Shown: piece by piece, positions 34,254 to 56,429 of the stretch
Layout of the letters: the number at the start of each line of letters is the position of its first letter
Numbering within the stretch: the stretch's first letter is position 1
Origin: Paracoccus chinensis
Lineage (GTDB): Bacteria > Pseudomonadota > Alphaproteobacteria > Rhodobacterales > Rhodobacteraceae
Length of the DNA: 64,000 nt
Assembly (NCBI RefSeq): GCF_900102885.1
Contig: NZ_FNGE01000001.1
Coordinates: 186,001 to 250,000, forward strand
Reading direction: 5' to 3'
Notes under the pieces: model-generated
The model's database searches: none
What the model was told of the DNA's origin: nothing
The model's input: only the letters and a program-made list of their open reading frames with translations
Made by a program: the position numbers and the translations under genes

Positions 34254-34327
34254 TGGAGCGGGTGATGGGAATCGAACCCACGTATTCAGCTTGGAAGGCT
34301 GCTGCTCTACCATTGAGCTACACCCGC
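34254..34327 (-). tRNA. tRNA-Gly (anticodon TCC)
   Basis: Read on the minus strand, the 7-bp acceptor stem is GCGGGTG paired with CACCCGC. The D arm is AGCTCAATGGTAGAGC, the anticodon loop CTTCCAA gives anticodon TCC, and the T arm GTGGGTTCGATTCCCA is standard. The 3' CCA is encoded. It decodes GGA and, by wobble, GGG. It lies between the hydrolase-like gene and trkH. Confidence 0.96.
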
Positions 34328-54337: not shown

Positions 54338-54943
54338 ATGCGCCCGATCCTTCCCGCCATCCTGGCGATGGCCGCGACTGTGCTCGCCTCGAACATCCTT
54401 GTGCAGTTCCGCCTGGGCGACTGGCTCACCTGGGGGGCGCTGACCTATCCGGTGGCTTTCCTCGTCACCGACATCACCAACCGCATCCACGGCCTTGCCG
54501 CCGCGCGGCGCGTGGTGGTGGCAGGCTTCGTGATCGGCGTCATCTGCTCGCTAGTCGCGGCGACCGGAGGCGGAACCACGCTCAGGATCACCGTGGCCTC
54601 GGGCGCGGCCTTCCTGCTGGCGCAACTGCTGGACGTGTGGCTGTTCGACCGGCTGCGCCACCGTGACTGGTGGCAGGCGCCCTTCCTGTCCTCGGTCGTG
54701 GGGGCGGTGCTGGACACGGTGCTGTTCTTCACCATCGCCTTTGCCGTCTTCCTGCCCGCCGACGCCAACACCGGCTGGTCGAACGAGGCCGTGCCGCTGC
54801 TGGGCGCGGGCCCGCTGGCGCCGCTGTGGGTGTCTTTGGGAATTGCCGACTGGATGTGCAAGATGACCCTTGCCGTGCTGGCTCTTGTGCCATTCCGGGT
54901 GCTGGTCCGCAAAATCTTGTCTGCGCCGGTCCGCGGCTATTGA
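54338..54943 (+). CDS. Queuosine precursor transporter (YhhQ/VUT family)
   Basis: A 201-residue membrane protein with about six helices. Landmarks: NILVQFRLGDWLTWGALTYP and FLVTDITNRIHGLAAARRVV (the conserved TDxxNRxxG-like element of the family), and a later LWVSLGIADWMCKM. Members take up queuosine precursors such as preQ0 or preQ1. No queuosine biosynthesis gene is nearby, and no preQ1 riboswitch-like structure was recognised in the 54233-54337 leader. Confidence 0.87.
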   Translation: MRPILPAILAMAATVLASNILVQFRLGDWLTWGALTYPVAFLVTDITNRIHGLAAARRVVVAGFVIGVICSLVAATGGGTTLRITVASGAAFLLAQLLDVWLFDRLRHRDWWQAPFLSSVVGAVLDTVLFFTIAFAVFLPADANTGWSNEAVPLLGAGPLAPLWVSLGIADWMCKMTLAVLALVPFRVLVRKILSAPVRGY

Positions 54944-55002
54944 CTTGTTGCCCGCCTGTGCCAACCTCAACCCTACGAGCAACATTGAAAGGAGGTGGTC
55001 CA

Positions 55003-55059
55003 GTGTCGAGAGTGATGTTGGAGAGAGGTGCCGGGACAGCAGGGGGGACCAGCGCCTGA
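55003..55059 (+). CDS. Possible 18-residue peptide with strong ribosome binding site
   Basis: GTG start; the peptide reads VSRVMLERGAGTAGGTSA. The AAAGGAGGTG upstream is complementary to ten bases of the 16S rRNA 3' end and is spaced 7 bases (from GGAGG) from the start, the best ribosome binding site I see in this window. Translation seems likely. Codons GTG-ATG-TTG-GAG-AGA are not the usual high-GC choice. It may be a leader or regulatory peptide in a small RNA; function unknown. Confidence 0.45.
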   Translation: MSRVMLERGAGTAGGTSA

Positions 55060-55134
55060 GGGCAGCCCCAAGGGTGCAGAACCCCAGTCTGGGACGGATC
55101 ATCCATCCCTAACCGGACCATCTTCCTGATCTCG

Positions 55135-55167
55135 CGGGCCGTCCTCAGGGGGCGGCCCGTTCGGTTT
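55135..55167 (+). terminator. Rho-independent-like terminator of the small unit
   Basis: Stem CGGGCCG (55135-55141) pairs with CGGCCCG (55153-55159) around an 11-base loop and is followed by TTCGGTTTT. A second hairpin, GGGCGCCT/AGGCGCCC, follows at 55171-55189. Confidence 0.65.
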
Positions 55168-55192
55168 TCCGGGCGCCTGTCAGGCGCCCATG

Positions 55193-55226
55193 AAAAAACC
55201 CCGGCCGCGTTTCCACGGCCGGGGTT
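55193..55226 (-). terminator. Terminator of the thiolase gene
   Basis: On the minus strand, arms AACCCCGGCCG and CGGCCGGGGTT (11 bp, 8-base loop) are followed by a run of T (seen as AAAAAA at 55193-55198 on the plus strand). It lies 18 bp after the thiolase stop: a textbook intrinsic terminator. Confidence 0.85.
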
Positions 55227-55244: not shown

Positions 55245-56429
55245 TCAGATCCGCTCGATCGCCAGCGCGATGCCTTGGCCACCGCCGATGCACATGGTGA
55301 TCAGCCCGTACTTGCCGCCCGTGCGCTCAAGCTCATAGAGCGCCTTGACCGTCAGGATCGCGCCGGTCGCACCGATCGGGTGGCCCAGCGCGATGGCGCC
55401 GCCGTTCGGGTTCACCTTGGACGCATCGAGCCCGAGCCCCTTGTTCACCGCCAGCGCCTGAGCCGCGAAGGCCTCGTTCGACTCGATCACGTCGAAGTCG
55501 TCCACGGTCAGGCCGATCTTTTCCATCAGCTTCTGGACGGCCGGGATCGGGCCGATGCCCATGACCTCGGGGCGCACGCCCGCATGGGCATAGCCCAGCA
55601 GCTTCGCGCGCGGCTTGAGGCCCGCGCGTTCGGCCGCTTCCGCGCGCGCCAGGACGATGGCGGCCGCGCCGTCGTTGATGCCGCTGGCGTTCCCGGCGGT
55701 GACGCTGCCGCCGTCCTTCTTGAAGGCGGGGCGCAGGCCCGCCAGCGCCTCGGCCGAGGTCTGCTTGGGATGCTCGTCGGTGTCGAAGCTGATCACGCCC
55801 TTGCGGGTCTTGATCTGGATGGGGACGATCTGGTCCTTGAAGCGGCCCTCGGCGATGGCCTCGGCGGCGCGCTTCTGGCTTTCCAGCGCAAAGGCGTCCT
55901 GCTCGTCACGGCTGATCTGGTGCTCGGCCGCGACGTTTTCCGCCGTCACGCCCATGTGGCCCGTGCCCATCGGGTCGGTCAGCGCCCCCACCATCATGTC
56001 CAGCGCCTGCTGGTCGCCCATCTTGGCGCCGTGGCGCATGGACGGGATGATGAAGGGCCCGCGGCTCATGCTTTCGGCGCCGCCCGCCAGCGCGAAGTCC
56101 GCATCCCCCAGCATCAGCGACTGCGCGGCCGAGGCGATGGCCTGCGCGCCCGAACCGCAGAGCCGGTTCACGTTCATCGCCGGAGTGGTTTCCGGGATGC
56201 CCGCGTTCAGCATCGCCACCCGCGACAGGTACATGTCGCGCGGCTCGGTGTTGATGACATGGCCATAGGCCACGTTGCCGATCTGGTCGGGCGTGACGCC
56301 CGCCCGGGCCATTGCCTCTTTCGCGACGGTGGTCGCAAGCTCGATCGGCGGAACGCTTGCCAGGCTGCCACCGAAACCGCCGATCGCGGTCCGCACGCCC
56401 GACAGGATCACGATGTCGCTGTCTGCCAT
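55245..56429 (-). CDS. phaA: Acetyl-CoA C-acetyltransferase (thiolase)
   Basis: A 394-residue biosynthetic thiolase. The active-site Cys is in [20 protein letters not shown], the His in [15 protein letters not shown], and the second Cys in MCIGGGQG near the end. It condenses two acetyl-CoA to acetoacetyl-CoA, the first step of polyhydroxybutyrate synthesis; in Rhodobacteraceae the phaB reductase usually follows, but it does not here. The gene is monocistronic, with a strong terminator. Assignment to phaA rather than another thiolase is by similarity of the strings, not proven. Confidence 0.9.

Follow-up and report, generated by a model that had tools for sequence, protein, structure and literature searches.

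The small unit at positions 54976-55168 (+) of the window, by which we mean the whole 64,000-nucleotide stretch of Paracoccus chinensis DNA analysed here, is real and is a stand-alone small gene. A strong ribosome binding site, a GTG open reading frame and a terminator of its own, all claimed in a preliminary description made from the letters of the DNA, lie where they had been placed, and the view that the unit is small and autonomous, with selection acting on its short ORF, is supported. Our preferred reading, held tentatively and rated somewhat short of an even chance, is that the unit encodes a translated, ribosome-gated regulatory sRNA of about 190 nt, related to CC2171, in which the passage of a ribosome would outweigh the peptide that is made. 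The elements of the unit are as follows.

54976-55168 (+): the unit, with conserved upstream TTGAC, 18-codon mini-ORF, covarying stem and terminator
54940..54967 (+): putative promoter, TTGACT (54940-54945), a 16-nt spacer and CAACCT (54962-54967)
54976..55168 (+): putative transcript of about 190 nt with a predicted start, matched by the models R1 and RF01867
54987..55003 (+): extended Shine-Dalgarno GAAAGGAGGTGGTCCAG, complement of the 16S rRNA 3' tail with one G-U
55003..55059 (+): mini-ORF VSRVMLERGAGTAGGTSA, GTG start, 18 codons (55003-55056) and TGA (55057-55059)
55017..55021 (+): 5' arm GTTGG of an inner helix, pairing with CTAAC at 55109-55113 in the MFE and centroid folds of 54976-55168
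55037..55091 (+): P2 stem over the ORF end and stop codon; in Rhodobacterales, 6 of its 9 pairs show two-sided changes
55115..55127 (+): lock, the 16S-tail-like segment GGACCATCTTCCT, pairing back onto the ribosome binding site
55134..55160 (+): intrinsic terminator stem-loop, a 12-pair stem with a T-rich tail

The preliminary description let the unit begin at 54944; that position falls in a promoter-like upstream stretch, and the RNA itself probably starts near 54975. The upstream element, which overlaps the stop codon of the preceding Vut_1 gene, is probably a promoter, judged by its conservation: of 30 Paracoccus loci, counting the window's own, 29 have TTGAC 5' of the site, and a CTGTG.CA..CT block aligns as well. 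A consensus promoter scan of the region found no promoter. Terminator-like sites in the region number two, against 0.3 expected from shuffles, and a second strong terminator-like hairpin lies at 55197-55226, between the unit and a convergent thiolase gene. A domain search places that gene at 55245-56429 and, upstream of the unit, a Vut_1 (YhhQ-type) transporter gene at 54338-54943. The sole match in an Rfam scan of the window at gathering thresholds was a tRNA gene at 34257-34327 (-); the unit was not reported.

By blastn the unit was found in 35 of 36 congeners and not in 24 genomes of other families of the class. A covariance model, R1, was built from an alignment of 49 sequences, namely 30 genus loci including the window and 19 loci from named records (the divergent L069 and L110, the cut-off L071 and the duplicate L079 were left out). 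R1 matches the window over its full length at 54979-55167 (E 1.2e-34, the window's own sequence being among the 49). Of 149 Rhodobacterales genomes, 142 (68 of 72 genera) give R1 one match apiece. E values are below 1e-12 for 138 of these matches, and two of the matches are weak, at 3.6e-4 and 0.002; R1 has no match in the other seven genomes. ORF and terminator are both conserved in other genera, which the preliminary description had set as the test of its proposal, and chance similarity was rejected on the strength of the spread in congeners, Rhodobacterales and Alphaproteobacteria.

An exact 21-base core, GAAAGGAGGTGRTCCNRTGTC, occurs in 42 of 289 genomes of a class sample and in 69 of 398 genomes of a phylum sample. 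By hand count, all 69 are among the 135 Alphaproteobacteria of the phylum sample, and its 263 other Pseudomonadota have none. The core never occurs more than once per genome, and a reversed-pattern control was empty in the 398 genomes; half of the Alphaproteobacteria in the sample escape a search for the exact core, of which variants exist. A core scan of named genomes gave at least 119 stretches. Eighty core loci were listed, 76 of them with alphaproteobacterial titles (several orders), three titled only Proteobacteria and one Gemmatimonadota. This last, L091, carries the 21-mer, scores 16 bits with R1 and is probably a chance match; it was kept in the class-wide ORF, neighbour and site-pairing counts given below. 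Searched across orders against 74 loci (30 of L032-L061 and 44 of L062-L141), R1 gave seven matches below E 0.001, and most of the 58 matches listed were weak, a few lying off the element; the argument for homology across the class is thus based on RF01867, the ORF and the 21-mer common to the loci, and not on R1.

The preliminary description knew of no family for the unit. RF01867 (CC2171), which Rfam lists as an sRNA gene, is a relative, with the window below its cut-off. The window is matched at 54980-55158 by the full model with 33 bits (E 1.7e-5); since this is below the gathering cut-off of 75 bits, the unit is not filed as a member. The likeness lies in the shared 5' block CAAC..GAAAGGAGGTGRTCCAGTGTC and in a terminator hairpin at the same model end: the RF01867 5' block GAAAGGAGGUGAUCCAGUGUC is present in the window at 20 of 21 positions, with one A to G, and so is a G+C-rich 3' terminator hairpin of RF01867 type. 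The difference lies in the consensus helix CAUUGUC/GACAAUG, which is only partly matched (in the Infernal alignment GAGAGU stands opposite CUGAU-CUC, and non-standard pairs make up two of the seven), whereas the predicted fold of the unit pairs the ribosome binding site instead. RF01867 matches 69 of the 289 class-sample genomes, nine of them above the cut-off, and its matches coincide with those of R1 in the four class-sample genomes that belong to the window's family. The unit is, judged by its sequence, a sub-threshold relative and structural variant of RF01867. CC2171 itself is reportedly the Caulobacter sRNA of Landt et al. 2008; a search of the open-access literature, outside which most subscription papers lie, found no paper on its function or on 16S complementarity. 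In Mesorhizobium huakuii, MH_s33 is annotated as RF01867 in a single table entry, with a sequenced stretch of 215 nt, and the accessible part of that report gives neither a function nor an ORF for it (PMC5596092); the Mesorhizobium loci L066 and L137 of our set carry the unit's core together with an ORF beginning MSSDFV.

The ribosome binding site of the unit is complementary to the whole tail of 16S rRNA. In the window, where AAAGGAGGTG stands at 54988-54997, GAAAGGAGGTGGTCCAG (54987-55003) pairs gap-free over 17 nt, with one G-U, with the 16S end CTGGATCACCTCCTTTCT; in many other genera an A replaces the G, and the 16S pairing is perfect. Since GGAUCACCUCCUUUC is the single-stranded 16S tail beyond helix 45, the conserved 15-mer covers the loose tail. 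The extended site is identical in 30 of 30 Paracoccus loci, the window's own included, and AAGGAGGTGRTCC occurs once in the 3.63 Mb of the window's own assembly, which, in the copy searched, seems to be without rRNA genes. The 16S end was not found in eight Paracoccus genomes, complete ones included, nor, with up to two mismatches, for five Paracoccus genomes among the matches listed; the Paracoccus genome copies searched therefore seem to be without rRNA. As a query against other records it matched 219 overall, 209 of them at 99% or better, and among the matches listed it was found at 51 of 51 bases (100%) in Paracoccus aminovorans and 39 further plasmid records. An altered Paracoccus 16S tail matching GGTGGTCC was considered and rejected: with the standard end seen in P. 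aminovorans, the single G-U pair stays.

Complementarity to the full 16S tail, combined with a fixed short ORF, is also what would be expected of an RNA that only ties up free 30S subunits or acts as an initiation sink, with its own structure irrelevant. A single-copy gene, however, would need very high expression to titrate ribosomes, and the covarying stem described below would be left unexplained; of the readings weighed here we consider this the least probable, and very improbable.

Comparison of the loci suggests that the start, length and stop of the mini-ORF are strongly constrained and its amino acids weakly. An in-frame stop is present in 117 of 119 class-wide loci, among the matches listed (the other two run off the contig); the start-codon frame closes after 13-31 codons in 115 of the 117, with exceptions of 36 and 59 codons, as against 27 of 116 and 26 of 112 for the other two frames. 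In one of the class-wide loci, L149, the core is followed by a 59-codon secretion-signal-like ORF; this is probably a chance match. Within Rhodobacterales the ORF set comprised 97 of 110 loci drawn from the 142 matches, the 13 others, whose head was not placed by the pattern, being left out. Exactly 18 amino acids are encoded in 92 of the 97, the remainder having 12, 20, 20, 22 and 26, and all three stop codons are used (TAG 41, TGA 38, TAA 18). On our reading of the codon rows, a base lost and a base gained, with frame and stop intact, are the simplest explanation of how the window's ORF differs from those of its closest relatives. Six loci (L113, L124, L130, L134, L156 and L178) have 14-residue ORFs with a constant KRCHLAGIAR; the four titled ones, L113, L124, L130 and L134, are Bradyrhizobium.

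The alternative that bears most directly on these counts is a small-protein gene, that is, a plain small mRNA whose ribosome binding site is unusually good and whose active product is the 18-residue peptide. It would account well for the strongly kept start, length and stop, and within Rhodobacterales the peptide is recognisable, often as V-S-R-x-x-L-E-[RK]-G-V-G-T. Peptides of different orders, however, share little beyond their first residues; eight peptides of other orders gave no NCBIfam match (the window's own 18-aa peptide being too short for the tool), and three of these eight gave no Pfam match above cut-off. Synonymous variants are hardly favoured: among one-step variants of the commonest codons in Rhodobacterales, 25 of 45 possible synonymous ones occur and 48 of 104 non-synonymous ones. 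The wobble bases of two codons are frozen, with GAG at codon 7 in 116 of 116 and ACA at codon 12 in 115 of 116 distinct 18-codon ORFs, and about 100 nt of structured, conserved RNA lie 3' of the ORF. We take the small-protein reading to be unlikely, if well short of negligible. As the peptide is weakly constrained and the wobble bases of codons 7 and 12 are nonetheless invariant, it is the RNA and its translation, rather than the peptide, that selection would seem to keep. The preliminary description had proposed a regulatory peptide or a dual-function sRNA. The latter remains a live proposal, with strong comparative evidence arguing that the ORF is translated, as we infer that it is in the cell; the former looks weak, with peptides that differ almost completely between orders and with non-synonymous variants nearly as frequent as synonymous ones while length is tightly kept.

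When 54976-55168 is folded, the MFE and centroid structures both place AGGAGGTGGTCC (54990-55001) in a duplex with GGACCATC-TTCCT (55115-55127). This pairing, the lock, consists of AGGA/TCCT plus GGTGGTCC/GGACCATC, with the GTTGG/CTAAC helix sitting inside it; the segment CTAACCGGACCATCTTCCT at 55109-55127 covers CTAAC and the lock segment, and CTAACCGGACCATCT of the latter is present in 30 of 30 Paracoccus loci, the window's included. From the predicted start the fold energy is not exceptional (z -1.7, 10 of 200 shuffles as good); with the coordinates of the preliminary description it is z -1.0 (34 of 200 as good), and the lock duplex is lost.

Among the 49 aligned sequences the lock is 94.4% paired, nearly all of its changes being one-sided, with one double change; the invariance of the ribosome binding site leaves the lock core no room to covary, and the GTTGG/CTAAC arms are so nearly invariant that covariation cannot test that helix. 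Lock and P2 together show 24 double-change cells, compared with 5.3 in shuffles and 4-12 when the partner is slid, and the covariation score is 0.174 against 0.132 and 0.018-0.073, respectively; as kinship alone can lift sequences above shuffles without any structure, the slid controls are the better guide. Of those 24 cells, P2 accounts for 23; in the window the pairs of this stem are CAG/CTG, GGGG/CCCC and GCGCCT/GGGTGC, a version that deviates from the commoner one in Rhodobacterales. Counted by pairs, double changes are nothing special: seven pairs have one, versus eight and seven with the partner slid by -1 and +1. A larger alignment of 99 sequences fitted to the model, from which 12 of 110 loci were left out, including the weak matches L345 and L346, gives 181 double-change cells against 54.9 in shuffles and 14-25 slid. 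Seven inner lock pairs are kept in nearly all of these 99 sequences, in an alignment fitted to the structure; the next three (columns 22-24) are unpaired in 61, 75 and 41 of the 99, and the outer pairs hold mostly in Paracoccus. A competing five-pair helix, CGAGA/TCTCG, which is partly the RF01867 helix, crosses the lock and is 85.7% paired in the 49 sequences; it shows no double change among them and is absent from the predicted fold. The short GAGA/TCTC pairing of 55008-55013 with 55128-55133 also crosses the lock, without covariation support, and could be an alternative state.

Class-wide, the site pairs with the rest of its RNA better than with shuffled RNA in 36 of 76 loci, compared with 6 for a reversed, 0 for a complement and 7 for a shuffled-site control, and no better in the other 40. 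An earlier run, with different shuffles, gave 33 of 76; four of 80 loci had been dropped for having too little DNA, and, the loci being related, these counts are not to be read as a probability. The partner of the site lies 3' of the ORF in Rhodobacterales and in L141, a locus of another order; several loci of Phyllobacteriaceae and Bradyrhizobium have it within the ORF. About +113 from its element start, L141 repeats 11 nt of the 16S tail exactly (GGATCACCTCC), and this internal copy could pair with the ribosome binding site of the same RNA; L113 and L124 have the 16S-tail-like pieces CACCTC and CTGGGATCGCC in their coding stretch. In several other loci it is the codons after the start that pair with a segment before the terminator, as in the RF01867 consensus, the pairs being TCATTGTC/GACAATGG, TCATTGCC/GGCAATGG and CATGGTY/GACCATG. 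Pairing of the wider initiation region with the 3' end, a weak test, is seen in 13 of 76 loci, versus 4 reversed.

The same 3' segment might belong to an ordinary trans-acting sRNA, in which CAUCUCC/CCACCUCC would pair with the ribosome binding sites of target mRNAs, the Shine-Dalgarno stretch serving as a mask and the ORF being secondary. The segment is anti-Shine-Dalgarno-like and conserved in Rhodobacterales, the unit has its own terminator, and anti-Shine-Dalgarno motifs in stem-loops are reported, in the accessible part of the source, for the Bartonella sRNA BbsR14 (PMC7717549). Such an sRNA would leave unexplained both the tight class-wide ORF length and the complementarity to the whole 16S tail, however, and outside Rhodobacterales many loci lack the segment or have it in another place. 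We regard this explanation as distinctly unlikely.

In the ribosome-gated regulatory sRNA that we prefer, the extended Shine-Dalgarno would pair with the loose 16S tail of a free 30S subunit; when no 30S is at hand, the internal 16S-like segment near the 3' end would hold the Shine-Dalgarno stretch. A ribosome that takes the site and runs the 18-codon frame would open the lock and the stop-codon stem, the CAUCU(U)CC-type 3' segment would be freed and the RNA reshaped, and the freed segment may then act on other mRNAs or alter the life-time of the RNA. Very long Shine-Dalgarno pairing could slow initiation rather than promote it, which is a point against the ribosome-gated reading. More broadly, the unit may belong to a class-wide device that gauges free 30S subunits, built on a complement of the tail and, as far as Rhodobacterales and some further lineages go, on an internal mimic of the tail, so that ribosome and RNA would compete for the site and a mini-ORF of near-fixed length, the peptide of which hardly matters, would time the open state; this wider proposal is a possibility that we hold with considerable doubt.

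The neighbourhood of the unit varies. A Vut_1-like gene precedes it in 20 of 81 loci, and a release-factor-like (GGQ) gene, which we take from its sequence to be arfB-like, lies near it in 16 of 81. In Sphingomonadales, what is presumably a branched-chain aminotransferase-like gene is often found 3' of the unit and a presumably TlyA-like gene upstream. Each order has its own neighbours, and in 29 of 75 class-wide loci a simple gene caller puts the downstream gene on the minus strand. With neighbours that change from one bacterial order to another and a downstream gene on either strand, the unit looks like an independent gene. Genes related to translation or tRNA recur near it, namely Vut_1/YhhQ-type and arfB-like genes in Rhodobacterales (L062-L138) and the presumed TlyA-like rRNA methyltransferase in Sphingomonadales; this recurrence could be chance synteny.

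Fifteen of the 16 arfB-like genes lie downstream on the same strand, with a median start 227 nt from the core; the other, in L119 (Hyphomonadaceae UBA5336), is divergent and about 150 nt upstream of the element. That arrangement would fit a cis-acting leader or attenuator of the next gene, which in many Rhodobacterales is this presumed ribosome rescue gene. In the window, however, the next gene is the thiolase on the other strand, and the genome's arfB-like gene (its third RF-1 domain match, arfB-like by size) is about 57 kb away, outside the window; the terminator closes the unit, and across the class no fixed same-strand downstream gene was found, the minus-strand neighbours just mentioned being those of a crude gene caller. 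As a general explanation the neighbour-gene leader was rejected on account of the varying neighbours and the distant arfB-like gene, and we consider such a leader very unlikely.

Several short coding RNAs of related bacteria resemble the unit in part. As described in the accessible parts of the reports, rnTrpL/peTrpL of Sinorhizobium meliloti is likewise a small RNA with a translated mini-ORF, of comparable length at 14 aa (PMC10117765, PMC7298713); it is leaderless and an attenuator of a downstream operon (PMC10117765), whereas the Shine-Dalgarno of our unit is extreme and there is no operon with which the unit is regularly paired. Pos19 of Rhodobacter sphaeroides is a coding sRNA of 219 nt, also from Rhodobacterales, but its ORFs are of 150 or 135 nt, it has an RpoE promoter and, in the part of the source available, it is reported from R. 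sphaeroides strains only (PMC5036791). The duf1127 leader of S. meliloti shares with the unit a short upstream ORF and the reading out of ribosome occupancy, and its authors deem it, in the accessible text, suited to sense a shortage of ribosomes; it is a cis attenuator of a downstream gene, in contrast to the stand-alone RNA described here (PMC12218461). Pos19 and the duf1127 leader were rejected as identities of the unit, being different things.

The unit is spread far more widely than could be seen in the preliminary description, and the Rfam cut-off passes the relative in only 9 of 289 class genomes. The pattern of constraint, with ORF length and RNA fixed and the peptide loose, leads to a clear prediction that could be tested in common laboratory strains. 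As a single-copy element in 142 of 149 sampled Rhodobacterales genomes, with relatives in the class and pairing over the whole 16S tail, the unit is well placed as a candidate for a basic connection of gene regulation with the supply of ribosomes.
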